DNA of 64,000 nt from positions 1-64,000 of the IMG/VR virus record IMGVR_UViG_3300048065_001264; one strand, written 5' to 3'. The notes beneath the pieces were generated by a model. The model was not told where the DNA came from. It saw only the letters and a program-made list of their open reading frames with translations, and did not search any database. The position numbers were made by a program, and so were the translations under genes. Source of the DNA: a virus. Positions 37,115 through 60,100 of the stretch are shown in pieces (the first letter of the stretch is position 1; each line of letters begins with the position of its first letter).

Positions 37115-39628
37115 TTAGAACCTCATTATACCCATAATTTGATTTATAGGAGCAAATGTTCCGGTTAGTTTATATGTTCCACCTTTATATTGAAATACAA
37201 CACCTTCTGTTGGTGCGATTGCGTTGCTTCCACCAATAGAATTAAGACGATTGAGATTTTTATTTAACTTCTCCATGTCTTTTTTAAACTTATCAGGTGA
37301 TTCAACAGAACCAATCTTTTTTGATTCTAATGTTTTAACATGAACATCAAGTGCCTTTGCTATATCATCACTTCCTCCGGCCGCAACGAATCCTTTTACA
37401 TTCTTTAATACTTCCGCACCCAATTTCAAAAAGATGAATTGAAATGGCCACATATTTTCTTCAAATTGTTTTGTAATATCTTCTTTTTCAAACTTAGTAA
37501 CCCACGCAAGTAACTTTGGGTGATCAGATAAGTCTTTTTTAATAGTGGTGATTTTGTTAGACTTATCATTATATGCCCAACGACCAATAAGTGCTTCGTA
37601 TACGTTTGATGGAAATATCTCTTTAGTTTTTGTTTGTTGTTTATTTAATAAATCTCTCCACCAAGAATCATGATACTTCATTACTTTGTCGTTGTCTTTT
37701 AATCTAAATTTGTTTTTAAGTTTATCTATTTTAGCAGAATACTTTGCATAAGAATCTCCAAATGTTTTGCTTTTAGGAAGTTCTACCACAATCGGTGCAT
37801 TTAAAGAATATCGTTTTTGAACATCTGCGTTAATTTGTTTCAACATACCTTTAAGCATTCTTGCAGAATCTTTAAGTTCACTTGTTATATCATTTCCTTC
37901 AGAATCTACACTTACTGCTTTTCCTGCGGAATCGTATGCTTGTGTTCCGTGAAATACTAACATATCTACATTTTGAGGAATCACATTTTGTGTTGCTGGT
38001 GTCATTACTTCTATATTCATAAAACGTTCACCTTCACGAAATACTTTATTCTTTTGTGCATCGGTAAGACCAGATATAGCAGTTTCCAAATCTTCAACTG
38101 CACTTACAAATGCATCACGAATATTATCAGGACGATCAGCAAATATACTTGAAAATTCTTTTACATTAGGTGCGGCTGCTCCTGCGTTTTTTAAATGACC
38201 TTGATTTCTTGCAGCCACCAACTGACCATCTTTCCAAGAAAACATTAAATTTTGTCCATCAAGTTTTTCAGTAACTTCTTTTTCAACATTTAATTCACCT
38301 GCGAGTGATCTACGAATCATTTCTTTTAAATCACCGAATGTTAACTCACGATCATCAAAAGGATGACTCATATGACCGGCCGCACCTCCCTCTGTAAGCA
38401 AGTTTTCATTTATTGACTGACCGTTTACACCTGTTTCTAATTTATTTTCATCTTCGTTATCTTTAACATCTAGTGTATTTCCGTCTACATTTTCGTCTCC
38501 TGATTTATCTATTTTTCGTATCGATGATTCAGAGCCTACAAAATCTACTAATTTAAATCCAGTTGTTTCTGCCACATTTTCTATAAAAGATACCCACTGT
38601 TGATGTGCCTGTGAAGATTTTTCAGTATCAATTTGGTTTGTAGGAGTTTGTGCATCAGATACTCCAGACGGATAAAAACTAACTGCCGATACGGGACCGG
38701 AATAATCTCCGTATTCACGATAATCTGAGTTTCTTCCTTTGTCGTTTTTATCCACCACATAATCAAGTAATTCATAACCAAGTTTTTTTGCTCTTTTAAG
38801 AGTATGTGTTTCATACGATTTGTTTGGAAAGAAAGAAGATGGACCGTCATCCACTATCTGCTTACCAAGTGATCCTATTGTACTTAATTCATTTAAAATA
38901 TTTGGAAATGTTTTAATAAATGGTAGTAATTTTGGATATTCACTTAAAAAGTTTTCAAATAATTCCTCGTTTTCAAACAATGTGCTAAACTTCTTGGTAA
39001 GGTATTTAAATATTTTTTCGTCATACCACCCAAATAATTCTTTAAATGCTTGAATTTTTGTCATTTTATCATGCTCAGGACTGCCTAGTAAATCACGGAT
39101 ACGAGTACCACTTACTTCCTTACCCAACACCTTAATACTTACATGAGGAGCAACGATGAAATATCCATGCTCACCGTATGGTTTCAAATCATTCTTATTT
39201 TTCTCATACGATTGATAATATGCAGGAGAACCATCTGCTTTAGTTGTTTTTAATCTACCTGCATCTTTTTCTCCGAAAATATAAACGACAGCAGTTGTAT
39301 TTGGGTCATACTTCTTTAAAATTTCTTCGCATACATATGGATTTTTCACTTTGACTACGTTTTTGACACCATGTTTTGTCCACACCATTTTCTTTTCTTT
39401 AAAATTAAGAGGACTTTTTGTGGCATCGGTTTTATTACTTGTAGCAACATATGCTTTATCAAACTTACCATCCAACCATTTGTATGTTTTGTGATGGTGA
39501 ACACCAGCTGGCTGAAATCTACCAGGATATATACCGATTACTTTGCGTATAGAATCTTCATTTAAAGCGTCACCCACTACATAGTCTGTGAGATTCTTCG
39601 TAAGTAACTCTTTTAAATCAACATTCAC
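37115..39628 (-). CDS. NMN-adenylyltransferase-like domain fused to RNA/DNA-ligase-like nucleotidyltransferase domain
   Basis: An 837-aa protein. The N-terminal domain (about 30-225) is a cytidylyltransferase/NMNAT-like Rossmann domain: IGIYPGRFQPAGVHHHK (a degenerate HxGH region), YIFGEKDAGRL and VSGTRIRDLL, the last matching the ISxTxIR motif. The second half (about 410-837) carries a set like covalent nucleotidyltransferases: TEKLDGQNL (motif I KxDG, K455), AARNQGH, FMNIEVM (about 535, like motif III), and near the C-terminus EGVVFQYKGGTYKLTG (E808 and K820, like motifs IV and V). Phage relatives are usually called cytidyltransferase or left as an unknown family. Combined NAD metabolism and ligation is inference. 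The start is a GTG overlapping the previous stop by 4 bp. Confidence 0.65.
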   Translation of the reverse strand: MNVDLKELLTKNLTDYVVGDALNEDSIRKVIGIYPGRFQPAGVHHHKTYKWLDGKFDKAYVATSNKTDATKSPLNFKEKKMVWTKHGVKNVVKVKNPYVCEEILKKYDPNTTAVVYIFGEKDAGRLKTTKADGSPAYYQSYEKNKNDLKPYGEHGYFIVAPHVSIKVLGKEVSGTRIRDLLGSPEHDKMTKIQAFKELFGWYDEKIFKYLTKKFSTLFENEELFENFLSEYPKLLPFIKTFPNILNELSTIGSLGKQIVDDGPSSFFPNKSYETHTLKRAKKLGYELLDYVVDKNDKGRNSDYREYGDYSGPVSAVSFYPSGVSDAQTPTNQIDTEKSSQAHQQWVSFIENVAETTGFKLVDFVGSESSIRKIDKSGDENVDGNTLDVKDNEDENKLETGVNGQSINENLLTEGGAAGHMSHPFDDRELTFGDLKEMIRRSLAGELNVEKEVTEKLDGQNLMFSWKDGQLVAARNQGHLKNAGAAAPNVKEFSSIFADRPDNIRDAFVSAVEDLETAISGLTDAQKNKVFREGERFMNIEVMTPATQNVIPQNVDMLVFHGTQAYDSAGKAVSVDSEGNDITSELKDSARMLKGMLKQINADVQKRYSLNAPIVVELPKSKTFGDSYAKYSAKIDKLKNKFRLKDNDKVMKYHDSWWRDLLNKQQTKTKEIFPSNVYEALIGRWAYNDKSNKITTIKKDLSDHPKLLAWVTKFEKEDITKQFEENMWPFQFIFLKLGAEVLKNVKGFVAAGGSDDIAKALDVHVKTLESKKIGSVESPDKFKKDMEKLNKNLNRLNSIGGSNAIAPTEGVVFQYKGGTYKLTGTFAPINQIMGIMRF

Positions 39629-40501: not shown

Positions 40502-41539
40502 TTACTCTTTAAAGTCTAAATTTCTAATATGATGAAAGTATTTATTAAGTTGATTTTTAGATAACTCAAGACTATCAACTATACGAGAAAGTACTGCTAA
40601 ATTTCTTTGTTCATTTAAATCAAACTTTTTAATCACATGAATTGAACGACTTAAATGTCTTTCCAAGTCCATTGGTAAAACAACATCTTGCATTGTATCA
40701 ATAGTATACTCTTCGTTTACACGACTTCTTTTGTCACCACTCTTGCTCATTTTATCATGTGCCATCATGATTTTAATCCATTTCTTTCCAATTGGATTTC
40801 TAATTGGTTTTGAAATAAATTTTGCTACCTCTTTCATAAGTCGTGGAACTAAATCTAATCTACCTGGTTTTGTTTTACTACGAGTATCTTCTGAATTATC
40901 TACTATAACAAAATTTGCTTTGAATAAACCTTGAAACTTACCAATATTTTTTTGAACATCTGTCCAAATATCTTTTACTATTTTTCTTGGAAGTTTTCTC
41001 TTACGCATTGCGTTTCTTTGTTGTGCCACATCTAATGTTGTATTTACAAACACCATATAGCAATCGTATCCAAGTTTTTCAAGTTCTTGTTTTTGCTTTG
41101 ATATTTTGCTATAATTATCACCTGTTCCGTCAACTATTACACCCAAACGGCCGTCTTTGAATAATTCAAATTGTTTAAGCATTATTTTCTTTGCACGTGA
41201 ACGAACACTATTTGGATCATCACTTGTTACTTTAGCAAATGTTTCGTCATCCATTTTAGATAGATTCAGATCATATCCTGCTTTTTTAAGTAATATCTCA
41301 AATGCAGGATCACTATTTACAATCTTTAATCCACTTGGAGATAAATTGGCTGCGTCAGGTGGAAAATTAAATAATGTATCAACAGTAGCAGATTTACCTG
41401 ATCCAGGACCTCCTGCTAGAAATACTGCTTTTAAAATACCAGGATCATATACACCCTCTACAAGTGTAAAGTATCCTTTACGCAACCCTGCTTTAATCAG
41501 GGTTTCTTGGACTTTTTGATTTTCTTCGGATTTTTCCAT
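40502..41539 (-). CDS. Zeta-toxin-like P-loop kinase
   Basis: A 345-aa protein with Walker A LAGGPGSGKSATVD (about residues 41-54), IVNSDPAFE (an acidic residue after the second strand, as in zeta/PNK kinases), VIVDGTGDN, and a lid-like basic segment QRNAMRKRKLPRKI. This order fits the zeta toxin/polynucleotide kinase group of P-loop kinases. The substrate cannot be read from sequence: nucleic acid 5' ends, UDP-sugar or protein are all possible. The C-terminal third is a basic helical region without motifs I know. It lies three genes upstream of the NMNAT/ligase-like fusion, so an end-healing kinase role analogous to T4 PseT is a reasonable but unproven inference. Confidence 0.7.
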   Translation of the reverse strand: MEKSEENQKVQETLIKAGLRKGYFTLVEGVYDPGILKAVFLAGGPGSGKSATVDTLFNFPPDAANLSPSGLKIVNSDPAFEILLKKAGYDLNLSKMDDETFAKVTSDDPNSVRSRAKKIMLKQFELFKDGRLGVIVDGTGDNYSKISKQKQELEKLGYDCYMVFVNTTLDVAQQRNAMRKRKLPRKIVKDIWTDVQKNIGKFQGLFKANFVIVDNSEDTRSKTKPGRLDLVPRLMKEVAKFISKPIRNPIGKKWIKIMMAHDKMSKSGDKRSRVNEEYTIDTMQDVVLPMDLERHLSRSIHVIKKFDLNEQRNLAVLSRIVDSLELSKNQLNKYFHHIRNLDFKE

Positions 41540-41582: not shown

Positions 41583-44183
41583 TTATGCTCCGTATTTTAT
41601 CTTACTAAATGAACCTTCTTTTTGAATTTCTACAATTTCATCCACCATATCTCGCATAACATCCAAATGACTAATGACCACGATGAACTCAAACTGACCT
41701 TTTAGATAAGTAAATAGATTAAATACACTGCTAATATTGTCTCCGTCTAATGTACCCCAACCTTCGTCAATAACAAGGAAATTAGAACGAGGAAGACTGC
41801 TTACATTGATAAGTGCTACACGCATAGCAATACTGCTTATGAATCGTTCCATACCACTACACATCTCTAAAGGCCAATGACGGTCTTCGTAGGTTATCTT
41901 TGAGTAAATGTGTTTTCCATCCATTTCAAGATTCATACCGAAATCAACAATTTGAGAAAGAATATTATTAACTTCACTTTCAATACTTGGAATTGTTTTA
42001 GAAATTAACTCGTATGAAATACCATCTCGTTTTACCGCATCAAGATACAATTCGTACCCTCTCTTTTTTCTTTCATAACTTTTTGCTTCTTCTATTGATG
42101 CAAGAATATCTTCGTGTTCCTTTTCAGCAATTTTTACCTCACCAAAAAGAGTTTGAAGTTTTTCATTTTCTTCATTCGCTATATTGTTTACGGACAATAA
42201 CTTGCTTTGAAGATCATCTACCTCTAGTTGTAGTTTTTTATTAAATTCAATTATGTCCTTGCACTCATGATACGAATCGATATTTTTGTTATTAATTATA
42301 ATATCTTTTTCAAGTGACTCTATCATACTAGATAAAGCAAGAACTTTTGAATCGGCTTCGTTGATTTCAAATGAAGTTTGTGTCAAAGTATTATTTAAAT
42401 CTTTCAATTCCTCATATTCATTTTCTACATTTTCAAATTCACTTAATTGCTCTGTGTATACTGCCTTTTGCTTTACAAGTTCGTCTGCGGCTGCTTTGTC
42501 TTTGTCAAGTTCTTGTTTAGTTTGTTCTGCACTTTCAATTAAGTTTTTAGAATTGTTTACACAATACGAACAATTCGGATCATATTCGTGGTCATCATAA
42601 TGTTTTAATTTATCAAGTTTAGCATTAACTGAAGTTCTCAGAACTGCTAAGTCTTTATCGACAATCACTACATCTTCTCTTATTTTAAGAACCTTTACAT
42701 AATTTTCTTCTACACCATATAACTCGGAAATTCTTTTTGACAAATCTCCTCGTTTATTTACAAGTTCTTTTTTACGTGCAGATTCTTCACCTCTTTGTTT
42801 TTCTGCTTCTAAAAGCCTATCTTCCAAATTCTTTTTATTAAACTCCAAATTATCTATATCTGAACTATCGTTATCAAACGAACAATTTTTAAAATTTGAA
42901 CTTTTATCAGAAAGAATTTTATTTACTCTTTTTTGTTCAAGTAAAGCAATATTAGTTTTGCTCTCTTGTTCAGAATATTGTTCAGATATATTATCAAGTT
43001 TTTCTTTAATTTCTGCCAATGTTTCATCAAAATTTTCACGATTAAATCTTTTTAATAAAGCATTTATTTCTTTTATATCCTCAGATGCAGTAGAGTGTAA
43101 TTGATCAAATATATCAATTCCCATAAATTGAGCAAGCAGGTCTTTTCTTTCACTTTGACTTTTATCTATAAAAATTGCATTGTTGTTTTGTAAACTAAGA
43201 GTAGTTAAAACAAAATCTTCATAAGAACCCACATGATCACGGATAATGGCATTTGTTCCTGATCGTTGCTCTCCATTCAGTGAAATAGTTTGACCTTCTT
43301 CATCTAGTTTCCAAAAGTCCACAACAACAGTAACATCTCCATTCTTTTTTGTGGATGCAGTTCTCTCAATATAATAATTTACTCCACCTATTTCAAAATT
43401 AAGTTTACAATAAAAAGAATCTGTTTGTGTATTTAGTACGTGTGAAGCCTTGAATGCACGATCACATTTATCAAATAAGCAAAAACTTAATGCACTCATC
43501 ACACTGCTTTTTCCACTTGCATTAGAAGCAAACAATCCCATAACACTTTTCATATTAGAAAAGTCAATAACATTCCCGTCTCCGTAACTAAACATATTTC
43601 CAAATTCAAACTTCTTTGGTTTCCAAATACAATTTTTGAGTATTTCTTTTATTATCAGTTTTTCATTTACTTCTTTGTTTATATCAAGAGCAGTTTTTAT
43701 TTGTTCTTCATCAACTACAAAATTACGAGTTAGATAATCTTCAATAAGATCGTTTTGAATTTGGACAAGTGATATGTCTCCAAAATCAAATTTATTATCA
43801 CGATCAAACTTTTTTGCTTCAGAAATCGCATCACATCGTGTAACATTTAAATCAGTTATACTCGTTTGCTTCCGTATTTCTGCAATAATCTCTTTTGTCT
43901 CGGTTGCGGTTGTATTATACACCTTGACACGCAATCTTGCTTTATTTGGTAGTTTAGATAAATCACTAACACACTTTCCATCACGAACCGTAACAGTATA
44001 ATAACCATATTCATTATGTACATCATAATGTTGATGTGTTCTATTTTCCAAATCCCATAAAACATATCCATGTCCAGACGGAAGTTCTCCGTGGTTTTGT
44101 TGTATCATACTACCAGAATAAACAACAACTGGTTTATCAGGATTGTGTCTGATTACCTTTATATATTTTTCTTTATCTTCCAT
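41583..44183 (-). CDS. gp46: gp46/Rad50/SbcC-like ATPase carrying the missing gp47 cap segment
   Basis: An 866-aa SMC-like ATPase. Residues 1-60 or so do not belong to gp46: they carry VVVYSGSMIQQNHGE (20-33), the cap motif that follows the catalytic core in Mre11/gp47 proteins. The Rad50 part begins near residue 185 with FEFGNMFSYGDGNVIDF and Walker A GLFASNASGKSS (216-227). Long coiled coils flank a zinc hook (NCSYC, about residues 535-538). Near the C-terminus are the signature-like MCSGMERF and Walker B FLVIDEGWGTLD. It forms the end-resection complex with the gp47-like protein encoded two genes upstream. The start overlaps the glycosyltransferase gene by 11 bp. T4 gp46 is about 560 aa, so the extra length comes from the N-terminal extension and coiled coils. 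Confidence 0.88.
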   Translation of the reverse strand: MEDKEKYIKVIRHNPDKPVVVYSGSMIQQNHGELPSGHGYVLWDLENRTHQHYDVHNEYGYYTVTVRDGKCVSDLSKLPNKARLRVKVYNTTATETKEIIAEIRKQTSITDLNVTRCDAISEAKKFDRDNKFDFGDISLVQIQNDLIEDYLTRNFVVDEEQIKTALDINKEVNEKLIIKEILKNCIWKPKKFEFGNMFSYGDGNVIDFSNMKSVMGLFASNASGKSSVMSALSFCLFDKCDRAFKASHVLNTQTDSFYCKLNFEIGGVNYYIERTASTKKNGDVTVVVDFWKLDEEGQTISLNGEQRSGTNAIIRDHVGSYEDFVLTTLSLQNNNAIFIDKSQSERKDLLAQFMGIDIFDQLHSTASEDIKEINALLKRFNRENFDETLAEIKEKLDNISEQYSEQESKTNIALLEQKRVNKILSDKSSNFKNCSFDNDSSDIDNLEFNKKNLEDRLLEAEKQRGEESARKKELVNKRGDLSKRISELYGVEENYVKVLKIREDVVIVDKDLAVLRTSVNAKLDKLKHYDDHEYDPNCSYCVNNSKNLIESAEQTKQELDKDKAAADELVKQKAVYTEQLSEFENVENEYEELKDLNNTLTQTSFEINEADSKVLALSSMIESLEKDIIINNKNIDSYHECKDIIEFNKKLQLEVDDLQSKLLSVNNIANEENEKLQTLFGEVKIAEKEHEDILASIEEAKSYERKKRGYELYLDAVKRDGISYELISKTIPSIESEVNNILSQIVDFGMNLEMDGKHIYSKITYEDRHWPLEMCSGMERFISSIAMRVALINVSSLPRSNFLVIDEGWGTLDGDNISSVFNLFTYLKGQFEFIVVISHLDVMRDMVDEIVEIQKEGSFSKIKYGA

Positions 44184-45108
44184 TCGTTACAATTTCTAAA
44201 ATATGTTGTCCAACCTCATAATCATTTAAATATGGACTAAGATGAACATGACCTTGCTTTGGAAAATACATATTAGGTCCTAAAAAGGGTGTTCTTTTTT
44301 CCAAGTTCTTTAAGTCACCTCCTTGTTGTTGCCATAAAATTCCTTTAGGACCAAACATTTGGTGAATATAGTCTGTTGTAATAATTGTCTTCGTTCCAAT
44401 TGCAGATGAAATGTTTGTAATACAACCCTCCGACCCAATTACATAATCACAATTTTTAATTAAACTTGCAGTAAACGAGAATTTACTTGTGGAGTTAATT
44501 TCAGGAAAATTCTTAGAAATTTTTTCGTCTAACCCCAACGCAAATAAAAGAATATCAGAAGATAATTCTAAGCAATTTATAATATCAAAAATATTTCTAG
44601 AACCCGACCCATATCCATTGCCAGTTTTGCCACCGTCTGCTCTTTGATACTCCTCTTCTGTAAATAGGAAACTTTTTCGTGACCAGTCTACTTGATATCC
44701 GACTAGTTTTACATCTTCTTCAAGTTCACCTATATTTTTTAATTCATTTATACTTTTTCTAATAGAATAGTCGAGTGTTGGGTTTGTAAAAATTTCAAAG
44801 GAATCATCATAGTTTTTGATATTGCACATTTTTTGAAATTGAGATACTGCCGATTCGTATGGGTCTAATACTGACACATCTTCATCCATTATAGTATGTA
44901 CGATATCGTAATCTATATTTGCACTCTCTTTATAGAAAACTCCATCTATATATGGATTATTTAAAAGTAATTCAATTGGTTGTAAAAAAGAAATATCAAA
45001 ATGCACTAAGCTGTTAGGATTCATTTCTTTAATTTTCTTGGCAACACTACTTGCGAAAAGTGTATCACCTATGTGTATATTTCTACACCTAACAAGTATC
45101 TTAGTCAT
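44173..45108 (-). CDS. Glycosyltransferase family 9 / heptosyltransferase-like protein
   Basis: A 311-aa protein counted from the ATG at 45108. An upstream GTG at 45117 is possible, but the ATG gives the common start MTKILVRCRNIHIGD. This N-terminus matches the 'ii-r-n-iGDtl-a-p-v...lk...P' pattern of GT9 (ADP-heptose:LPS heptosyltransferase-like) enzymes. The C-terminal IGSEGCITNISSAIGTKTII matches the donor-site 'v-gneg...h-iAsalG-ptv' region. The acceptor is unknown; phage GT-like genes may modify host surface sugars or phage components. It is inserted exactly between the two halves of a gp47-type nuclease gene, overlapping the upstream half by 8 bp and the downstream half by 11 bp. GT9 assignment is moderate because the mid-region is divergent. 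Confidence 0.65.
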   Translation of the reverse strand: MTKILVRCRNIHIGDTLFASSVAKKIKEMNPNSLVHFDISFLQPIELLLNNPYIDGVFYKESANIDYDIVHTIMDEDVSVLDPYESAVSQFQKMCNIKNYDDSFEIFTNPTLDYSIRKSINELKNIGELEEDVKLVGYQVDWSRKSFLFTEEEYQRADGGKTGNGYGSGSRNIFDIINCLELSSDILLFALGLDEKISKNFPEINSTSKFSFTASLIKNCDYVIGSEGCITNISSAIGTKTIITTDYIHQMFGPKGILWQQQGGDLKNLEKRTPFLGPNMYFPKQGHVHLSPYLNDYEVGQHILEIVTNGR

Positions 45109-45805
45109 CACTAACACACCACCCTTCTAGTTTATATTCGTCTAGTTTACTATCAGGAATAAATCTATGCTCAGTTTGATACTCTTGTAAAACTTGATAC
45201 TTGTGTATATCCCCAAGCATAACAATATCATATCCGTTAAACATAGGTAAGTTAATATCCCCACCCATAACTACATATCCTATATCAGTTCTACTTCTTT
45301 TTACCGCACCATGATATACTGCTATCTTGGTTTTAATAGAATCATCTTTTATGTCAGACCCTTTGATATATTTTACCGGATCTTCAAATATTCCAAAGAC
45401 ACCGATGGCAACATCACCTAATTTATATACACCCGTATCTTTTAGATAAAACAAATTGTCGTCGTCCATCATATCAAGTATAGGTGATAATACATCAAGA
45501 CGATCAGGGTTATTTAAATTACAGTCGTGATTACCTGCAATTACAATTGTAGGATGAAGTTTGGAACACTCTCTTAAAAACGAAGATATTTGATGAATCA
45601 ACTCAGGACTCATCTCTGTCTTAGCATGAGCAATGTCCCCACCGATAAAAATGATTGCATTATCAAGATTATCATCTTTAACTTGTTTGTAAAAATTTTC
45701 AAATACAAGTGAATATTCATTGTGCCTTTTTACATTTCTAATATGAATGTCTGCAAGATGATATACTTTTTCAACATTATTTAAATTTGTTTTTAGTTCA
45801 TGCAT
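45101..45805 (-). CDS. gp47: gp47/Mre11/SbcD-like nuclease, catalytic part only
   Basis: A 234-aa calcineurin-like phosphoesterase with the expected metal motifs in order: LADIH (D19, H21), GGDIAH (D57), AGNHD (N92, H93), YHGAV (H165) and LGDIHKY (D199, H201). The protein stops soon after the last motif. The segment that normally follows in Mre11-family proteins (the 'Y-P/S-G-S ... N-x-G-E' cap region) is missing here and is found instead at the start of the gp46-like gene. A glycosyltransferase-like gene lies between the two. With gp46 this enzyme would resect DNA ends for recombination-dependent replication. The gene overlaps both neighbours (13 bp and 8 bp). Confidence 0.85.
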   Translation of the reverse strand: MHELKTNLNNVEKVYHLADIHIRNVKRHNEYSLVFENFYKQVKDDNLDNAIIFIGGDIAHAKTEMSPELIHQISSFLRECSKLHPTIVIAGNHDCNLNNPDRLDVLSPILDMMDDDNLFYLKDTGVYKLGDVAIGVFGIFEDPVKYIKGSDIKDDSIKTKIAVYHGAVKRSRTDIGYVVMGGDINLPMFNGYDIVMLGDIHKYQVLQEYQTEHRFIPDSKLDEYKLEGWCVSDD

Positions 45806-46722
45806 AGTTTTTGTTTCATCAATTCACTAAAATCAAGAAATTCTGCGTTTCTAATTTTGTGAATTATTTTGTTAAACCCAATGTCCGCTGCATCTTCGTT
45901 TCCCATTTTGACGAGTCTAACTTTTATGCTTTCACTCATCAATGTTTCGGAAATTTGTAATGCGTTTTTAAATGCATCGTTATCAAGAACGATACATACC
46001 TCAGAAACTCCGTGCTCAACTAATTTTGTTTTTAGTTTACTTGGAATATTCTTCCCCAATAATGGAATTGCGTTTCTACGAATTGCCATAGCATCAAATA
46101 CACCTTCGCAAAAAATAAGTGGTTCGGAGAAATCAATTTGATTTTCAAACACCACTACATCTTTACTAACCGGTGGATTTTTGTATCGTAAATACGCAGT
46201 TCCTGTAAAATCTCTTGCTATAAAATAATTTAAATTATTATCACAATCATATGATGGTATTATAATTCTATTTGCATAATCACCACTTTCACAATATCCA
46301 ATATTATATCTTTCTATATCATATGAAAATATATTTCGTTGTCTTAGGTAATTAAACGCAGACTTTGATGCTCTTGTTTTTTCATTATCATACTGCAATG
46401 ATGTAAATTCATATGGAAGGTGAATTTTAACTTGTTCTTCCTCGGTCTGTTGCGTACTTTTTGGTATCTTTACAATTCTTGATAATTCTGTAAGATATTG
46501 AGGAGCAACATTCATCTTCTTAAATAAACCATAAATTGATCTACCTTTTGAATTTGTATCAATCCAACTCTGCCATCTCTGCGTAGATAGATTAATAGCA
46601 AGTTTCGGTTTTCTATGGTGCGAAAATGGACACATAAACATAGCCTCGTCTTTAGAGACGATTTTTCCATTTCCTAATACTTTTTGTAAAAGATTAAGAA
46701 GTTTTTGTTCGGAAATACCCAC
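45793..46722 (-). CDS. DnaG-type DNA primase with degenerate zinc finger
   Basis: A 309-aa protein. The N-terminus has the start of a CHC2 zinc-binding domain (CPFSHHRKPKLAI, residues 31-43). The usual second Cys pair is replaced by a WQSW-type sequence at 50-53, so metal binding may be incomplete. A TOPRIM domain follows: FCEGVFDAMAIRR supplies the catalytic Glu and VLDNDAFKNA the DxD pair, with DAADIGF near the end. This is the DnaG/gp61 arrangement that makes RNA primers at the fork, though at 309 aa it lacks a clear helicase-binding domain. The GTG start at 46722 overlaps the upstream stop by 1 bp, and the 3' end overlaps the gp47-like gene by 13 bp. Confidence 0.8.
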   Translation of the reverse strand: MGISEQKLLNLLQKVLGNGKIVSKDEAMFMCPFSHHRKPKLAINLSTQRWQSWIDTNSKGRSIYGLFKKMNVAPQYLTELSRIVKIPKSTQQTEEEQVKIHLPYEFTSLQYDNEKTRASKSAFNYLRQRNIFSYDIERYNIGYCESGDYANRIIIPSYDCDNNLNYFIARDFTGTAYLRYKNPPVSKDVVVFENQIDFSEPLIFCEGVFDAMAIRRNAIPLLGKNIPSKLKTKLVEHGVSEVCIVLDNDAFKNALQISETLMSESIKVRLVKMGNEDAADIGFNKIIHKIRNAEFLDFSELMKQKLCMN

Positions 46723-47246
46723 TATTTTAAAGAATACCAGTGATACAACGATGCGACCACCGCATCAAGCATATCGTAGTTTTTTTTATCATAATTATTC
46801 TTAGAATTATAGTGAATAAATTCGGATAAATCAAGCATATTATCAATATTGCACTTTACAAATGTTTTACTATCTAATCCTTTTTCTCTACTTTTTCCGA
46901 ATACCACTTTACGTAAAGTTGATACATTTACATGATCAACCTGAACTTTGAATAGTTCTTCAATTACATAACTTACAATAGCATTACACTTTGCCAGTTT
47001 AACAATAGTTTGTTGACTTGTTCGGCCACCACCGAACCCACTTAAAGTGTCTTCCACTATTATTGTTGATACATTGTTTATTTCAATAGAAGATAATGTA
47101 TCCGAAACATAATGTGCTTTTTCACGAAAGTTTGTAAGTTTTTTTACATCAACAAAACCTGCATAATCTATATTTGATTTAGAAGATGAGTAGCAGTATC
47201 CAACTACACTTGTACTTATATCCAATCCTAAACAATATTTTGACAT
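46722..47246 (-). CDS. RuvC-like (RNase H fold) Holliday junction resolvase
   Basis: A 174-aa protein with the RuvC/RNase H-fold acidic pattern. LGLDIS supplies an Asp at residue 9, IIVEDTLSGFGGGR a Glu at 65, and YDMLDAVVAS Asp residues at 158 and 161. The sequence between (SQQTIVKLAKCNAIVSYVIE) matches the helix that follows the second acidic strand in this superfamily. T4 itself uses the unrelated endonuclease VII (gp49), so this would be a functional replacement that cleaves branched DNA before packaging. The stop codon shares a base with the GTG start of the primase gene, implying coupled translation. Assignment rests on fold-type motifs and length, not on a close known homologue. Confidence 0.7.
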   Translation of the reverse strand: MSKYCLGLDISTSVVGYCYSSSKSNIDYAGFVDVKKLTNFREKAHYVSDTLSSIEINNVSTIIVEDTLSGFGGGRTSQQTIVKLAKCNAIVSYVIEELFKVQVDHVNVSTLRKVVFGKSREKGLDSKTFVKCNIDNMLDLSEFIHYNSKNNYDKKNYDMLDAVVASLYHWYSLK

Positions 47247-47770: not shown

Positions 47771-50700
47771 TTAAGTGTCATATTTTACTAAAAAATTTAT
47801 AGGATAGTTTGGTACAATTTTGACGGGTCTACTTAACTTAGCTGTCATTACAAGTTCCAATCCACTATAAAGACCTATTGTGGTTACATATGGTGCTAAA
47901 TAACTACCAGTTTGATCTTTTGCGTCATTCTCCTTATAATTCACAAATTCATCTAAAATTTTAACCCCACGATTTTTACCTGTTCGTGTATCTAAGAAAT
48001 TGATTATATCAAAAGGTTTTGTTCTTGTTGCGTTGACCGTAAACCCATCAACCAATCCTTTTGTAAGATTTATACCAGTTCTTCCTATAAAATAACGAAC
48101 AAGTAACATTGCATCTCGCATTGTAACTTCTCCGTCACCATCTATATCTAGTAAACCATTATCATGTAAAGTTTTTATTTTTTCCTTGATTTCAATCATA
48201 TCAGTTGTAGTCACTCGGTCATCCAGTACAGACTTTACTAAATCAACAATCAAAGCATCTTCCGACTCTGTTAACAATATATCGTCGTTAGGCCAATTTG
48301 TGTTTTGCTCTTCTTGTAGTTTTAAAGTATTCTTGACTTCACCTCCGTTTGGTATTTTTAAAACTTGTCCAACATACAAAACCGAGTTATCTTTTATGTT
48401 ATTTTTACTAAGTATGCTATCAACAGAAGCACCTGTCATTTTAGATATTGATTCTAATGTTTGAACACTATTAACTTCGTATATAATTTTATTTGGTAAA
48501 AAAACTGAGTCTCCTGCTGTTATCTGATCATTGTATCGCATTTTATTTCCGATTGTACCCGAATTATATTTTCTAATTTCCAAAAAACCAAATGACTTTT
48601 CAACAGGCACTATATCTTTGTAACTTCCTACATTTTCAGTCTTTGAGTCAAAAATATCAATTTCCGATGGATATGGAATGTCATATTGTTTACATATTGT
48701 CTCAAGACTTTCTTTTCTAACAGTATATTCATCATAATCAAGTTGTAGGTTTTCATCCCTAAACGTTCCCTCTATGTATCTGTATATATATGCTAGATCA
48801 GTAATGTCAAATTTTAAGTCAGAATTTACATCGTAATCAATTTCTCCATAAACCACAGATGTTGGATTTGTACTAACATTGAATTCGTTAGGTTTTACTG
48901 TACACAAAATTTCGTTCTCGTAAATTGTATGAGTTCCTTTAAAGTTAAAAGAATATCCTGAGTTGCTTGAACCGGTGAACATTTTTTTAAAGTATTCTGA
49001 TTCGTTTGTAATAACTGCAACTCCGTTTTTGTAAAAAATATTACCAACGTAAATATATTTTCCCTCGGTATATGTAGAGACGTCATATGTTATCACTTTG
49101 CCAAATATATTTCTATTTTGATATCTACTTTGACGTCCCCAAATTATATTACCATAATTTTCATAAATGTGAGAACATTGGCCAAATAGACCGAACTCAA
49201 CTCCTTCAAATGATTCAATTTCATTTAAATTAAAATCTCCTGTAACAGGACTTCCCACATAAAGATTGCTTGCACTCAAGGAAACTGACCTGCCGAACTG
49301 ATGTCGGATGTTATTTTTTTGTTTATTTACCTTAATTTCTTTTAGTTTTTTTATATCATCTTCTTCTATATTGTAATAATGTACTTTTCCTTCATGTGCA
49401 TCTCTTAATTCGTAATACACCAAACCGATATTATCAATATAATTTTCTTTTTGACTAAAAATGCTGTTTGGCAAAAGATCTACATAAAAAATAATTTCGT
49501 CATCTGTTATTATCGTCTTGTCTCTATAAATCCCACGAGTTACATCACCCATAGAAATAACTTCATCCTGCATGAAACAAATTTCATTTTGTACTTCACC
49601 TTTATATATTTTATTATTTTCTACTTTCTTAAAATAAACTACATCATCAGTTGGTGTTCCGGTGTAAGTAATATGGCATATAAAATTTCTATCATTATCA
49701 AAAACATCAAATGAAAAAGGTACAGATGTATTTGATGTGGAACTTGGGGGCAAGTAAATTTCAAAATCCTTACTAAATGTTGATGACATAATTCCACTTT
49801 CGTGGTCGTCTATTCGTGTCTCGGATTTTATACTATAATGTAAATAATACAAAGGAATTTTTGTGTAATCTATTTTAATTTTAGTCTCATCAATATAAGG
49901 ATGACTTATTGTAAACTCACCTTTTAAATTTTCATTAACATCTATATTTTTTCTAGACACTTTAAAAATAGCATCGGCATTGTTACCACCCAACAAGTCA
50001 AACGAACCATCGGTAATTATATATTTCAGTTGACTATAATAATCATCACTTTGTGAATTTGCACCATATCTATAATTTTCAGATGCAAATGTCTCACCAT
50101 CATCAAGCACATATATTTCACTTTGCTCTAGTAAAGGTTCACCAACTGCAAAATTATTATCTTTAAGAGAAACCGAAATTCCATATTCACTTGAATATTT
50201 ATTTTCGGTCAACTCATCTGTATATGTTTTTTTAAAAAATAGAAAGTCATCGTCTTTTTGCTTAAATACATAAACACTACCATTACTATAAATTTTTTGT
50301 GAATTATATTCGTCAAAATATTCTCTATCAATTGAATCACCTATTACTAAGTAATTTTCGTTTGCATCAAATGATATTCCAAAATTATTGCTAGTTTTAT
50401 TGTATTTAAATTTATATTTTGAATTTGCATCTCTAACTACTTCATTATGTAAAATTGGGTTTTGTACAATTGATAATCTACTTTGCACTCCTACCAGTTG
50501 ATCATCGTTTGTTGTTCTACCTATATAAATTTCAAATTCTCCATTCTTTAATTCTATAAACACCTCGTCCGAATCTACATAAACTCCACCACTGATTACA
50601 TATTCATCCTCTTCTATTTTTTCATTAAGTGGTTTGTCAATTCTATAAGAAAATCCATACCTAGAATTTGAGAAATTATCATCAATTTTTACTTTAATAA

Positions 50701-53700
50701 AAACTCCAGTTTGCTCCTGTATAAAATCTATTGAATTGATACCACCTCCGATTGCAAGTTCTTCACTTTTATATTTAAATATACCCTCTGTATTTATGTC
50801 ATGTGTATGCTGAAAATAACTTAAACAATCATTTTTCTCATTAAGTCTTTTAAATATACTTACAATTTGCAGTTGTGACGATGGACTTGATGTGTATAAA
50901 AAAGAACTTTTTAGTTTTACATTTTCACCAAGTCTGTCTGAGTTTGGTATTTTAATAATCTCTTGTAATTCCCAGGTGTCATCTCCAACTGAGTAAGTTG
51001 GTGAATAATTTCCATCTTCATCTTCGTCGTATCTGTGGAGTGGATATCCCTCAATATTATCCTCCATAGCAACAACATCTCCATCAAATGTATTAATTTC
51101 ATGTGCGTCTTCTGCACACCAGTCTGTATCTTTTTGAGGTCTTTCTTTTTCAACCGAGGATAACTGACAAACATTGTCTGTAATATATCCAGAATAACAA
51201 ATGTCGTGACGATCTTTAAAAAATATTTTATCGGAAGTCGGTTTGCCTAAAAATAATACATGACCTACCAAGATTTTTTGTTCATCGTAAATGTCAACGA
51301 CCTTGGCTCCGTCACCATATGAAGTATCAACCATAGGAAGTGATATATAACCCTCGTATGACCAAGATGATACGATTATTCCAGACTCTTGATCATTTAC
51401 CAAGTTCCACGCAGATATGTAAAAAGTATTTGGATTTTCGTCACTACAACTATCGGTTGGTACTTTATATTCAATTTTATTTTTTATGTTAATAATTTGC
51501 AGTTCACACATATTATTTACAATAGTTCCAACATATCGTTCACCGTACTTATTAGTAAAATATATTGAATTAGACATTGGCAATCCAGTAAATGTAATAT
51601 GCCCAAGTAATTTACTATCTAAGATAATATCAACAGAGTGTGGTGTACTTGTAATTTTTTTATTTACATAAGGTAAAGACAATATACCATCTACACCCCA
51701 AACTGAAGAAGTGATGCCAACCTCGGTGTCAATTATTGATATTTCATTTGATATTTGATAATCATTAAATTTATCGGAAATTAGTTTTCCCTCAAGTTTT
51801 ATTTGTTTGTATAAATGACACTCGTTGTCATCAATAATACCTTCATAGCAAATTCCGTCTAAGGCCTTGAAGTATATTTTTTCATCATAGAATACTCCCG
51901 ATATTGTAATATGTCCTATTATTTGTTCGTTAATGTATACATCAATTGAATATGGAGTTTTTGATCCATTTAAATTTACAGATGGTATCGATAATATGCC
52001 TTCGTATTTCCAATATGACGAAACCACACCTTCATCCGAGTCTTTTATTTTATTCTTATTCCCAATTTTATACCTTTTATATGAAAATGAATCTACGCAA
52101 TCTTCTTCCTCATATCCAGAAAGAACTATTTCTGACTTAAATCTACACACATTATTTTCAATTTCCCCTACATAACAAGAATAGTATGATCCAGATGGTT
52201 TGTAATATATTCTATTAATTTTAGGTTTTCCATTAAATGTCAAATGACCTAAGTGTGTATCAGACGCATCATAAACATCAATAGGGTATGGTAATGATGA
52301 TTCGTTTGTGTCAGAAGGTGGAACTGAGATAACTCCACTTTGAATCCAATATGAGGAATAAATTCCTCTGTGTTGGTCTTGCACCGAGACAGTTCTGCTC
52401 ACAATATAACTTGTAAAACCAGGTTCGGTACATGACCAATTCTCAGATGACTCACTTTTAAAGAAAAAATTTAAAGAGTCTTCTTCGGGAATCATACTAG
52501 AAATCTTATATCTCGAACTCCATCTATTGTTTTTCTTTAATTTGTCTCCCTTGGGAAGTCCAGTAAATCTTTTTGTTTTTTCGTCATATTCGTAGTGGTC
52601 ATACACATCCGATGCTCTTTTGTAGAAGTGAGATGTAGTCCTTTTTTCTTTTTTAAAAATGTAGATAGCACCCTCACCCTTATTATGTCCAGGTGCACCT
52701 ACTGCCAAATAATCTCCATGTAGTGAAACTGATGTACCAAATTCAGTTTGTGGTTCACCTTCAATTATATTTAAAAGACCCCAGTTTTCATTTCCTCCTT
52801 TATTTTTTCCATATACGAATATATGGCCAGTAGTACCCGTTTCACTACAAACTCCCCTTATGTGTGATCGTGATGACCCAACAACGCAAAAGTCATTATT
52901 TAAGTCAATGGCATCACCGAAATTGTCATTAATAGAGTAATCTCCACTAACTAACAAGCCACCGAGTTCATTTTTAATAAATCCAGTATTATCTAAATGT
53001 ACTTCAGATGAAAATCCATTTTGCGTAAATGGGTTAAAAAATTCTCTTATCAGATCATAGGAATCGTTGTCTTTATTAAGTTTAAATAAAGAAGCTTTAC
53101 CTGTATTTATTTCAGTAGGAGCATCATGATCTACAGGTTGACCTGTTAAGAAGTAATCATTATTTGAAACAATGTGCTCTCCAAATGTTAAATTATTAAA
53201 ATCAAAAACATTATTTGACTTAGATACATCTATCATGGACGGGTTACTAGTTTCTTTTATATCATTAAAAGAAACCGAATCAATCATTAGGTTTGTGGCA
53301 CCGTCGTCTATTATTTCTATTGCACCATAAGGTGAACTATAATCAGATATTTTGAAATTATTTGGTTTAATTTTTTCACCAAATTGCCTAGAATCAAATT
53401 GAACAACAATTACACTATCACCGATGATTCTTCTTTCAAATTTTACAGAATCATCGGTTGATAAAAAGTTTAAAGAATTATTGTTATCGTCCTCTAAAAA
53501 GTTTCCTGTTTCAGTACCAAAAACCATCATTGGATTTTTTGTGACTGAATTTTTTAATACAGACATTCCATAGTCGTTGTAAAATAAATGTTTTACAGAA
53601 TTAAATACAATTCGCTGATAAGTTCCATCTGTATTTATTAATTCAGTAGTTGAGTCATGCATTCGGTGATTGGTTGGATAAAAAGTTTCATTTTCTTTAT

Positions 53701-53914
53701 ATTTCTTACCCTTACTTATTTTTACTAAATTACTTTGATCGTATTGCTCGGTTGATAATTTTACTGATTCATCTACAAATAAATCTATATTTTTTCCACC
53801 TGAAGTTTGTTCTAGTAAAATATTACTTAGATTAGTAATATTATTATAGTTCCAATTTTTATGCGTAACGAATCGTCTGACTGACTTATCAGATACTTTC
53901 AAAGGTTTTATCAT
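47771..53914 (-). CDS. 2047-aa multidomain tail adhesin-like protein (FG-GAP, novel repeats, dockerin-like, LysM)
   Basis: At least five FG-GAP-type beta-propeller blades are visible, for example FGTSVSLHGDYLAVGAPGHN, FGDAIDLNNDFCVVGSS, YGISVSLKDNNFAVGEP and FGRSVSLSASNLYVGSP. Five copies of a repeat of about 85 residues start near residues 511, 624, 727, 838 and 1368. Two dockerin/EF-hand-like loops occur near residues 1692 (DYDVNSDLKFD) and 1918 (DIDGDGEVTMRD). Between them, about 1809-1857, is a LysM domain (LESISKMTGASVDSILSKNN ... YVGQVLKIP). The last 45 residues resemble the end of the 506-aa protein. These domains suggest a calcium-dependent, glycan-facing virion protein such as a fibre or baseplate adhesin. 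There is no Shine-Dalgarno; an ATATTTAT motif ends 4 nt before the ATG. Confidence 0.7.
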   Translation of the reverse strand: MIKPLKVSDKSVRRFVTHKNWNYNNITNLSNILLEQTSGGKNIDLFVDESVKLSTEQYDQSNLVKISKGKKYKENETFYPTNHRMHDSTTELINTDGTYQRIVFNSVKHLFYNDYGMSVLKNSVTKNPMMVFGTETGNFLEDDNNNSLNFLSTDDSVKFERRIIGDSVIVVQFDSRQFGEKIKPNNFKISDYSSPYGAIEIIDDGATNLMIDSVSFNDIKETSNPSMIDVSKSNNVFDFNNLTFGEHIVSNNDYFLTGQPVDHDAPTEINTGKASLFKLNKDNDSYDLIREFFNPFTQNGFSSEVHLDNTGFIKNELGGLLVSGDYSINDNFGDAIDLNNDFCVVGSSRSHIRGVCSETGTTGHIFVYGKNKGGNENWGLLNIIEGEPQTEFGTSVSLHGDYLAVGAPGHNKGEGAIYIFKKEKRTTSHFYKRASDVYDHYEYDEKTKRFTGLPKGDKLKKNNRWSSRYKISSMIPEEDSLNFFFKSESSENWSCTEPGFTSYIVSRTVSVQDQHRGIYSSYWIQSGVISVPPSDTNESSLPYPIDVYDASDTHLGHLTFNGKPKINRIYYKPSGSYYSCYVGEIENNVCRFKSEIVLSGYEEEDCVDSFSYKRYKIGNKNKIKDSDEGVVSSYWKYEGILSIPSVNLNGSKTPYSIDVYINEQIIGHITISGVFYDEKIYFKALDGICYEGIIDDNECHLYKQIKLEGKLISDKFNDYQISNEISIIDTEVGITSSVWGVDGILSLPYVNKKITSTPHSVDIILDSKLLGHITFTGLPMSNSIYFTNKYGERYVGTIVNNMCELQIINIKNKIEYKVPTDSCSDENPNTFYISAWNLVNDQESGIIVSSWSYEGYISLPMVDTSYGDGAKVVDIYDEQKILVGHVLFLGKPTSDKIFFKDRHDICYSGYITDNVCQLSSVEKERPQKDTDWCAEDAHEINTFDGDVVAMEDNIEGYPLHRYDEDEDGNYSPTYSVGDDTWELQEIIKIPNSDRLGENVKLKSSFLYTSSPSSQLQIVSIFKRLNEKNDCLSYFQHTHDINTEGIFKYKSEELAIGGGINSIDFIQEQTGVFIKVKIDDNFSNSRYGFSYRIDKPLNEKIEEDEYVISGGVYVDSDEVFIELKNGEFEIYIGRTTNDDQLVGVQSRLSIVQNPILHNEVVRDANSKYKFKYNKTSNNFGISFDANENYLVIGDSIDREYFDEYNSQKIYSNGSVYVFKQKDDDFLFFKKTYTDELTENKYSSEYGISVSLKDNNFAVGEPLLEQSEIYVLDDGETFASENYRYGANSQSDDYYSQLKYIITDGSFDLLGGNNADAIFKVSRKNIDVNENLKGEFTISHPYIDETKIKIDYTKIPLYYLHYSIKSETRIDDHESGIMSSTFSKDFEIYLPPSSTSNTSVPFSFDVFDNDRNFICHITYTGTPTDDVVYFKKVENNKIYKGEVQNEICFMQDEVISMGDVTRGIYRDKTIITDDEIIFYVDLLPNSIFSQKENYIDNIGLVYYELRDAHEGKVHYYNIEEDDIKKLKEIKVNKQKNNIRHQFGRSVSLSASNLYVGSPVTGDFNLNEIESFEGVEFGLFGQCSHIYENYGNIIWGRQSRYQNRNIFGKVITYDVSTYTEGKYIYVGNIFYKNGVAVITNESEYFKKMFTGSSNSGYSFNFKGTHTIYENEILCTVKPNEFNVSTNPTSVVYGEIDYDVNSDLKFDITDLAYIYRYIEGTFRDENLQLDYDEYTVRKESLETICKQYDIPYPSEIDIFDSKTENVGSYKDIVPVEKSFGFLEIRKYNSGTIGNKMRYNDQITAGDSVFLPNKIIYEVNSVQTLESISKMTGASVDSILSKNNIKDNSVLYVGQVLKIPNGGEVKNTLKLQEEQNTNWPNDDILLTESEDALIVDLVKSVLDDRVTTTDMIEIKEKIKTLHDNGLLDIDGDGEVTMRDAMLLVRYFIGRTGINLTKGLVDGFTVNATRTKPFDIINFLDTRTGKNRGVKILDEFVNYKENDAKDQTGSYLAPYVTTIGLYSGLELVMTAKLSRPVKIVPNYPINFLVKYDT
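49565..49812 (-). repeat. Protein repeat copy 5 of 5
   Basis: Fifth copy, separated from the other four by some 450 residues of beta-propeller-like sequence: SGIMSSTFSKDFEIYLPP, then SFDVFD, CHITYTGTP, VVYFKK and YKGEVQNEICFM. Boundaries are approximate. Confidence 0.7.
51155..51403 (-). repeat. Protein repeat copy 4 of 5
   Basis: Fourth copy: SGIIVSSWSYEGYISLPMVD, then VVDIYD, GHVLFLGKP, KIFFKD and YSGYITDNVCQL. Boundaries are approximate. Confidence 0.7.
51480..51735 (-). repeat. Protein repeat copy 3 of 5
   Basis: Third copy: VGITSSVWGVDGILSLPYV, then SVDII, GHITFTGLP, SIYFTN and YVGTIVNNMCEL. Boundaries are approximate. Confidence 0.7.
51795..52045 (-). repeat. Protein repeat copy 2 of 5
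   Basis: Second copy: EGVVSSYWKYEGILSIP, then SIDVY, GHITISG, KIYFKA and YEGIIDDNECHLY. It has the same strand order as copy 1. Boundaries are approximate. Confidence 0.7.
52135..52385 (-). repeat. Protein repeat copy 1 of 5
   Basis: First copy of a repeat of about 85 residues in the 2047-aa protein. The order is 'G-I-x-S-S-x-W', 'G-x-I-S-x-P', 'P-x-(S/P)-I-D-V', 'G-H-x-T-F-x-G-x-P', 'I-Y-(Y/F)-K' and 'Y-x-G-x-I-x-N-N-x-C'. Boundaries are approximate. Confidence 0.7.
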
Positions 53915-57190: not shown

Positions 57191-60100
57191 TTAAGAAGGA
57201 GACGGACTTGGAGTATTAAGATCATCGTTGTGGTGAGAAGTTGGTGTTGGTGTTGAATTATCACCTAATGTAGATGTAGGTGTTGGGTTTATCTCTAGTG
57301 AAGGTGTCGGAGTTGTGTTACCAGTTGATGAAGGTGTTGTGGTTGGTGTTGGGGAGGGTGTTGGTGTTGGGGTAATTGTTTCAAACGATTCAAATGTATA
57401 TGAGAATTCTAGTGTTTTTAATTTATCAGCTGATATAGGTATTACTTTTGCGTCTTCGGCCTTATTATTATCCGAGAAAATAATTGCAGGTACATCTTCA
57501 ATTGACCAAAAACTATCGTAAGAATCACTTTGACCCCGTGTAGTGTGAGTTCTTATTATCGGCGAGGTATAGTTTACATATCCACTGTTATCAATTGTAG
57601 TAAACATTGTATTTTTTCCAGTACCCTTTATATTTCTTCTAAATCTACTTTTATTGTAGTAATTTACTCCGTTTTCTATAATATTATTATGTTTTCCAAT
57701 TTTTATTAAATCACATATTGAATAAGGTCGTAAAGTTTCATATGTAAATGTACTTGGTGTATTATATTCAATTTCTAAATGATCAAGTGTAATATCCTTT
57801 GCACTATCGTAAAAGTCTATGAAATTGTAATTAAAGTATTTTGAAAATCTTTTTTTATGAACGTTTACAAACTCAACAACATTCTTTTGTTTTGCACTTA
57901 CTTCCAACCTAAGTGTATAATTTATACTATCAATTCCTATATCGTTTTCAAAGTCATCAATTAAATAGGTAAATCTTGTATTTGTTTTTTGCTCACTATT
58001 TATGGGAATTCTGATATCTTCGTTTGTAAGTTTACACTCTTCGTTACAATCTGGAAAATGTAAAGGTTCTAATTTTAGATTATCGTCACCCAATCCAGGA
58101 GCACTAAGTTGAATTTTTACTCCTGCTACTTCAACACCGTCTTCATAACAAGATTTTCCATTGTATGTTAAATTTATTCTTCCGTGTATATGTTCATTAA
58201 ATGCTTTATATAAATTTACATCGTGGGTAATGGATAATGGTAAATATGAATAATAGTTATTTGTCTGTTCAGACGAAATCGGAGTTATATTAAATTCATA
58301 AGAATTATTAATTGTCGATTTAATTATATCCTGTTCTACACCAGTAATTTTAGAAACATTAGGAACGAAATTAATATTTTGTGTTGAGGAATTACTTAAT
58401 TCGTAATTACACTCAATTTCATCATAATCAATATTTTCTGTTTTTAGATCATTTAGTTCAAAAATTTCGTTTTCAATCTCAGATTTAGTTCCTATATTAT
58501 TAAACTCACCTAGTCTTAGTTTATAATTAATCGTTAGATAGTCGGAATTATCTAAATTTACATAGTTTGTTAAAGCATCAACTGCCCTAGAACTAGAACT
58601 TAGTAACTGACTCTCATTCGCACCGGAAAATTCTTCATTTTCTGCTAAATTGTTTTTAAATCTGTAAAAAATTCCTAGAAATGAATCATAACTTGTAAGT
58701 TCATTGTTTCTATATCTTCTAATATTTTCAAATGTGTAATCCGACATTGTATCATGCTTGTCAGATAATATCCAACCCTCGGATTCACCACTTTTTATAT
58801 ATTTAAAAACCCAATTATTGGAGTTTGAAAATATCATAAAGTCATCATTATTATCTAGTGTACCAGAAGAAGTGTATGCACCATTTGCAGATTGAATACT
58901 GCAATTTTTGACCAATAAACTTGAAGAACTTATTATCTCTACAACGGCAACCTCACTCCAATCGTTACGCAGTCTATACTCACCAGGAAATGGTATATAC
59001 AATTGCCTAATAAACTTTTTTGATTTACCCAAAACTGATTTGTTAAGTGATCGGGCAGAAACAAATGTTTTAAGTGGACTTTTAGATTGACTTGTTTTTA
59101 GATCATCAATAGTCAACTCATAAGAATCATTTTCCTTTTTTTCCGAAACTAAATATATTTCAATTGTTTTGTTTTGTGATTTATTTGATATTTCAACTAT
59201 AAACTTATTTGGATCATCTATCTTTACAAATAGTTTATATTCTCTAAATGAAACTTGTCTATAATCACCAACGAATCTACTATTTATATCACTATTTGAA
59301 TTTATTGATAAAACAAGTTCGGTCCCAATTCCGTTCGTATAAGTTCCTTTATCAAGTATATTACAATAGGAAATTTGTCCATTTTTGTTTACACTATTAT
59401 TAATTATATTGTAATAACACTTTGGGTATAGTGATAGGTCATAACAATCATCAGATACATCTGAATCATAGAAATGTCCCCATCTTATATATTTTATCTC
59501 TTTGTTATTAGTATCAAAAATATTATTTTGTGTAAGAAATATATTTGGATAATTATGTTCGTTTTCATCTAGTTCAGCATAAAATACATTTCCAACACCT
59601 TCTTTTGTAAATATGTAATCTAAGTTTTGGTTATACTCATCACAATTAATTTTTTTATTTTCAGGATCTTCTAATGCACTCTTTTTTGCATACCCTAATT
59701 TAATTTGTATTGTCTCTACTTCTAAACTTGGTGATTTTGTGAAAAAATAAATATTTGGACTCGTTTTAAATTCAATTTTCCAAATTTTATTTTGAGTTTT
59801 GTTGTCCAGTGTTTCGTATATCTTATACCCGGTTTTTTCATTGTAAAAATAAATTTCTACATCACCATCTGCACTTGATTCATATTTTGTATAAATACCA
59901 AATGGTGATGGAATACTTGATATAAATTTTTTGTTATCAACTACCTCGGACACAGATAACTGATTGGTGTCATCCTGTGATATATTTATCTTCACCAAAA
60001 TGTCTGCATTTGTATTTAGTTCATACATTTTACCAGGTGGCATTTTTGGTCGTTTTCTAGATACTTTCACTACCCATGCCAATCTATCTATGTCCATAGC

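Follow-up and report, generated by a model that had tools for sequence, protein, structure and literature searches.

The window analysed here is a stretch of 64,000 nucleotides of viral DNA (positions 1 to 64,000 of IMG/VR record IMGVR_UViG_3300048065_001264). It comes from a T4-like (far-T4) myovirus with genes for a tail sheath, a major head protein, a portal, and a terminase; the portal is about 54% identical to the portals of Flavobacterium phage immuto and Microcystis phage Mel-JY01. Three open reading frames (ORFs) on the minus strand, in the order N half, glycosyltransferase-like (GT) gene, C half, occupy the place of one Mre11-Rad50 enzyme (gp47-gp46, SbcD-SbcC). An initial annotation had described the three ORFs as coupled by overlapping start and stop codons, with overlaps of 8 and 11 bp, and the coordinates bear this out (Table 1). 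The same gene order, with the overlaps preserved, is seen in 33 distinct IMG/VR contigs, which rules out chance or misassembly as its source.

Table 1. Features of the split Mre11-Rad50 locus and its upstream neighbours in the window.
Feature	Position	Strand	Length	Basis or remark
RuvC-like Holliday junction resolvase	46722..47246	-		phrog_159 (2e-9), phrog_827 (2e-7)
DnaG-like primase	45793..46722	-		phrog_47 (4e-35); directly upstream of the N half, 13 bp overlap
N half	45805..45101	-	234 aa	
N half, residues 1-210: Mre11/SbcD phosphoesterase part	45176..45805	-		PF00149, phrog_100
Conserved N-half tail (TEHRFIPDSKLDEYKLEGWCVSDD, stop)	45101..45175	-		homologous tails; position from AlphaFold2 model of fused L185
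GT-like gene	45117..44173	-	314 aa from GTG	ATG 45108 is the likely start; 8 bp overlap with N half (GT ATG 45108 to N stop 45101)
GT9-like (GT-B fold) glycosyltransferase gene	44173..45108 (alternative GTG 45117)	-		AlphaFold2 model and Foldseek
C half	44183..41583	-	866 aa	11 bp overlap with GT gene (C ATG 44183 to GT stop 44173)
N-terminal extension of C half (MEDKEKYIKVIRHNPDKP)	44130..44183	-		matches turn and strand 246-251 of fused L185
C half, residues 19-190: last Mre11 core strands, cap, Rad50-binding helices	43614..44129	-		alignment with fused relatives
C half, residues 191-866: Rad50/SbcC ATPase with coiled coil	41583..43613	-		PF13476, phrog_77, TIGR00618

The locus is part of a replication operon that runs from the RuvC-like resolvase and the DnaG-like primase through the N half and the GT gene to the C half. 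A primase also precedes the Mre11-Rad50 gene in Mel-JY01 and in the huge phage LR756508 (484 kb). Directly downstream of the C half lies a gene for a Zeta-toxin-like P-loop kinase (window 40502-41539; Pfam Zeta_toxin, 1.7e-11), either a toxin or a nucleotide kinase. An 837-aa protein (window 37115-39628) has an N-terminus that by reading resembles a nucleotidyltransferase (YPGRFQPAGVHHH). There are also two very long ORFs of 2047 and 2190 aa (window 47771-53914 and 57191-63763); the first has repeated segments and, near its C-terminus, a LysM-like stretch, both found by reading, and is probably structural.

The N half matches the metallophosphatase family Metallophos (PF00149, 2.4e-8) and phage SbcD-like proteins (phrog_100, 2.2e-17). 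All of its metal motifs are present (ADIHI, GGDIAH, GNHD, YHG, and GDIHK), as the initial annotation had stated; the chain does not end right after LGDIHKY, as had also been proposed, but continues for 30 conserved residues (QVLQEYQ, then the tail listed in Table 1). The C half matches AAA_23 (PF13476, 2.8e-13), phage SbcC (phrog_77, 9e-45), and TIGR00618 (5e-20). Its extension holds the last strand of a small extra unit, then the Mre11 core strand VVVYSGS. Metal motifs, cap, Walker motifs, and coiled coil, as expected of Mre11/SbcD-Rad50/SbcC, are thus all found, spread over two chains. On its own, each half is an incomplete nuclease domain: the N half contributes the metal motifs, the C half the last core strands and the cap. 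Within the clade, dN/dS is 0.02-0.07 for the N half and 0.03-0.11 for the C half; both are under strong purifying selection, in line with the earlier impression that they are well preserved. A second copy of either half was not found in the record of the window, in related records of up to 170 kb, or in the 484-kb LR756508 genome.

What does the middle gene encode? The AlphaFold2 model of its product (pLDDT 78) has the GT-B fold of the GT9 type, and the best Foldseek matches are the GT9 structure 3tov (4e-10) and the heptosyltransferases WaaF (1psw) and WaaC, with values ranging from 4e-10 to 4e-7. The GT9-like character assigned from the sequence alone is therefore upheld by the structural comparison. 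The protein is alike in fold to these heptosyltransferases but only 9-13% identical to the structures, and there is no Pfam GT9 match. An IGD motif near the N-terminus is invariant. With a dN/dS of 0.04-0.2, the GT gene is under purifying selection as well. Close relatives of the gene occur at this slot only; neither the phage records nor a genome scan contained any outside the Mre11 slot. No thymidylate synthase family gene (PF00303) was found in the 77.8-kb record, which speaks neither for nor against a role in DNA modification. The GT would be a cargo with a job of its own, the transfer of sugar, and not a subunit of the nuclease.

Was the enzyme once a single chain? When the two halves are aligned with intact relatives, a check proposed at the outset, the LGDIHKY segment and the cap segment (VVVYSGSMIQQNHGE) are contiguous in a single ORF in Mel-JY01 and in many viral contigs. 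The uninterrupted fused ORF of Mel-JY01 is 1066 aa long, and that of the 735-kb phage LR756501 is 1202 aa. A fused single ORF was found in about 120 locus entries in one search and in 74 of 80 in another, where entries of separate searches can be the same contig. The AlphaFold2 model of the fused protein from locus L185 (pLDDT 85.5) agrees along most of the chain with Mre11 structures, 3av0 and 6s6v among them, which identifies the N-terminus of the C half in the window as Mre11 core, cap, and Rad50-binding region. This agrees with the earlier placement of an Mre11 cap at the start of the gp46-like protein. As judged by comparison of these sequences, the ancestor is a one-chain Mre11-Rad50 fusion that was later split, which is also what the initial annotation had supposed. 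Across the window clade the halves are two ORFs in different frames, again as first described, and not one fused ORF.

The break site is found in three states. It holds the GT gene in 33 contigs, a nuclease gene in LR756508, and no gene in six contigs (L084, L088, and L118-L121). In LR756508 the Mre11 break contains an ORF of 305 aa for a Zn-finger/TnsA-like nuclease (L001:7040-7957), which has a TnsA-type PD-(D/E)xK core (PF08722, 5.8e-6 over residues 226-298, with a PDF...EVK pattern) and, by reading, three CxxC-type knuckles. It is weakly related to an endonuclease of Bacillus phage Moonbeam and to cyanophage gp4. Downstream of the split gene, the same genome encodes a 432-aa protein (L001:11291-12589) whose C-terminal part (CFPPHSEVLVNNEDQPIFARKIKEIEVGDSLLAF... 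FFVEGILFHN) resembles a Hint/intein-type domain by reading. Among the no-gene splits, the stop and start codons of the two halves overlap in five of the six. The sixth, L118, has a spacer of about 50 nt (L118:3950-4010), which may be what is left of a lost gene or may have come about secondarily.

The six no-gene splits and the one nuclease split indicate that fission does not require the GT gene. That insertion of a foreign gene caused the split, as the initial annotation had supposed, is not established. That annotation had itself pointed out that a cap lying in gp46 of close relatives without any insertion would speak against its account; the six no-gene contigs have exactly this arrangement, but they belong to another lineage by the approximately unbiased (AU) test and do not settle the order of events in that of the window. 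The suggested search for related genomes without the GT gene yielded none among close relatives: at every locus that is 70-100% identical to the window, the GT gene is in the break.

The break lies inside the loop after GDIHK, in a small unit that the initial annotation had overlooked and that is absent from most fused relatives. In most of these, the loop between the GDIH and IQQNHG motifs is 16-23 aa long (in the survey of 80 loci it was measured to a slightly earlier point). All broken N halves have a conserved tail, and all broken C halves have a strand-like extension at the start. In two fused lineages, L185 and L205/L206, the loop is instead 53-56 aa long and has its elements in the same order as the split forms. 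In the L185 model, where the unit is of moderate confidence (pLDDT 70-76), the loop consists of strands 210-212 and 215-219, helix 220-229, strand 235-240 (WEVVDD), a turn at 241-245, and strand 246-251 (KVRLRK). The unit appears to be exposed, as judged from secondary structure and alignment. The N-half tail corresponds to its first part (strand-helix-strand) and the C-half extension to its last strand. In the window the N half ends in GWCVSDD and the C half begins with MEDKE-KYIKVIRH; since one chain closes with a WCVSDD-type strand and the other opens with a KYIKVIRH-type strand, the break maps to the turn between the last two strands of L185.

How are the units of the different forms related? 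When 631 ORF ends were compared with the LR756508 tail, tails of the GT clade and of the no-gene splits ranked first, and it is through LR756508 that tail homology reaches the no-gene splits. The loop of fused L205 scores 51 against the tail of L119, and that of fused L185 scores 35 against the tail of L073, in each case the best pairwise score of the 631 ORF ends. That the unit of the fused proteins and that of the split ones share an origin is likely, though not proved: a profile built from the split forms alone finds L185 weakly (E 0.68) and L205 without significance; the link rests on pairwise scores and position. No related named Pfam domain was found. It bears some resemblance to DUF4177/DUF1737-like units, but a relationship to them is not claimed. 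Within the fetched loci it was found at this site only.

Did the enzyme break more than once? In a tree built on the shared parts with the loop left out, the GT forms make up one clade, the no-gene splits make up another that is nested among fused forms, and the fused forms that bear the unit fall in a third place. The AU test rejects a single clade of all breaks (dlnL 290, p=2e-6), a clade of GT and no-gene forms (p 1e-169), and a clade of nuclease and no-gene forms (1e-7); a clade of GT and nuclease forms, at p=0.037, is not clearly rejected, given the long branches. A single origin of all breaks is thereby ruled out for the no-gene group as against the GT and nuclease forms. It follows that either one and the same turn was broken two or more times or horizontal transfer spread a cassette.

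The GT gene has a history of its own. Its divergence shows a Spearman correlation of 0.09 with that of the C half and 0.64 with that of the N half, and its dS departs from that of the flanking halves both upwards (1.38 against 0.48/0.59 in one pair) and downwards (0.20 against 0.48/0.69 in a second pair). This decoupling, together with dS values unlike those of the flanks in some pairs, indicates that recombination has moved alleles through the joint. The identities of the N and C parts are also less correlated in the split clade (Spearman 0.345) than in fused relatives (0.816). However, segments within the C half decouple in the split clade too (0.577 vs 0.894 in fused forms), which points to general recombination and provides no proof of a special effect of the split; the idea that splitting itself frees the halves for exchange was dropped on these grounds.

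The reading that we favour, at a probability of roughly 0.6, is a recurrent and tolerated fission of Mre11-Rad50 in which the halves re-form the nuclease without splicing and the joint serves as an insertion slot. The sequences show that the ancestral single chain is severed in the loop that follows GDIHK, that every metal motif remains on the N chain, and that the C chain comprises the last core strands and the cap together with the Rad50-binding helices and the ATPase of Rad50. The two chains would associate non-covalently, held by the core sheet that they share, by the Rad50 complex, and by the hairpin of the small unit, which is divided between them, and would give a working nuclease for phage recombination and replication. 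The hairpin turn would be a break point that is tolerated again and again, and the stop/start junction a slot in which genes may settle: a nuclease in LR756508, a GT9 protein in the window, and none in the L088 group. By analogy with Aeh1 NrdA and phage 25 gp43, reassembly from two chains is the most likely outcome.

In its strongest form, the idea of the initial annotation would be that insertion caused the split. A mobile nuclease gene could have entered the fused gene, bringing the tail and a new start with it, in the way that mobE entered nrdA of phage Aeh1 (PMC2988022), and could later have been replaced by the GT gene in the window clade and lost in the L088 group. The nuclease ORF lies exactly at the break in LR756508; homologous tails in lineages for which a single origin is rejected would fit a cassette that moves between phages, and a GT gene whose divergence history is unlike that of its flanks fits insertion as well. 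Nevertheless, the predicted nuclease is present in one genome only, no remnant of it is seen in the GT or no-gene forms, and the small unit is also found unbroken in L185 and L205, so that this course of events is possible but rather unlikely. Still more tentative is the thought that the unit is itself a mobile, self-associating fastener: a cassette that enters the same Mre11 loop in unrelated phages, possibly with a nuclease or cargo gene lodged between the final two strands, and keeps the severed protein together without splicing, as a non-covalent counterpart of a split intein. We regard this as doubtful.

Could the chain be rejoined after all, by a group I or II intron that holds the GT gene or by a split intein? 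Introns and inteins are frequent in essential phage genes, which would favour such an arrangement. Split inteins associated with nucleases are also known from environmental phage genes (Dassa 2009, cited in PMC10448857 and PMC3653736). Against splicing, there is no Rfam match around the break up to E=1, nor any at gathering score in the window and the LR756508 locus. As the whole interval is taken up by the GT ORF, which also extends into both halves, there is no room for a ribozyme, and a group I or II intron is ruled out. The extensions that flank the break, of about 24 and 18 aa, are much too small, by usual intein lengths, to make up a split intein, and Pfam reported no intein family at the break, which rules out a split intein; rejoining by splicing is hardly credible. 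A programmed frameshift that yields a fused protein would mean that the no-gene splits are not true fissions, and in L088, L084, and L119-L121 the two frames do overlap at the stop and start codons. This is very unlikely given that the halves of L118 are about 50 nt apart and that the C frame of L119 has a stop directly before its ATG, which leaves a shift possible in the short overlap only; it is inapplicable to the window, whose halves lie 930 nt of GT coding sequence apart. Finally, a cut through the core of the nuclease domain might have killed the enzyme, in which case the halves would be leftovers in a phage that lives without Mre11. The low dN/dS of both halves (0.02-0.11), the complete set of metal motifs, and the same layout in 33 contigs make such decay highly improbable.

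Known counterparts are the 'genes in pieces' of T4-like phages, nrdA-a/mobE/nrdA-b of Aeh1 and gene 43A/43B of Aeromonas phages 25 and 44RR (PMC2988022). NrdA of Aeh1 and gp43 of Aeromonas phage 25 function as split proteins, and gene 43 is broken at one point in two phages, where the gap holds a homing endonuclease gene in one and nothing but a non-coding spacer in the other (PMC2988022). As in these systems, the Mre11-Rad50 gene is continuous in relatives and consists of two conserved ORFs in the window clade, with an extra gene or none in between. In contrast to them, the target is Mre11-Rad50, and the gene at the break in the window encodes a GT9-fold glycosyltransferase and not an endonuclease; a nuclease gene is present in LR756508 only. 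The Mre11 break also lies in a small unit that is found unbroken elsewhere, and it arose more than once at one site. In the 'fractured genes' with split inteins (Dassa 2009), a nuclease gene lies between the halves of an essential phage gene, as it does in LR756508; the Mre11 split differs in having no intein halves and, from what is seen, no covalent rejoining.

Fused Mre11/Rad50 proteins are known from Mimivirus (R555) and others (PMC3175470). The relatives of the window have exactly such a fusion with the same domain order, but in the window it is broken inside Mre11 and not at the Mre11/Rad50 border, which leaves the cap attached to Rad50. T4 gp47/gp46 and E. coli SbcD/SbcC share the enzyme family and the gene order with the window; they are two whole subunits, whereas here the border between the chains crosses the Mre11 nuclease domain.

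What is new is the splitting of LR756508 by a different gene, the six splits that contain no gene, and the position of the break inside a small extra unit. A recurrent break point in an extra hairpin unit, with cargo that differs or is absent, is a more interesting result than the insertion of a GT gene. The genes in pieces for NrdA, the gp43 polymerase, and topoisomerase are single cases, and how the pieces meet is still a question (PMC2988022). Here a single enzyme is seen plainly fused, fused with the loop unit, broken without a gene, and broken around either of two genes. All of this concerns one site, and the breaks have more than one origin; as all these states exist side by side, the order of the steps and the role of the unit can be tested. 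If the halves reassemble, this would be a natural split Mre11 nuclease with an active site that needs two chains, useful both for the study of Mre11-Rad50 and as a site for engineered splits. Breaks at one joint in several phage lineages suggest that this is a preferred place for the enzyme to come apart and still work.
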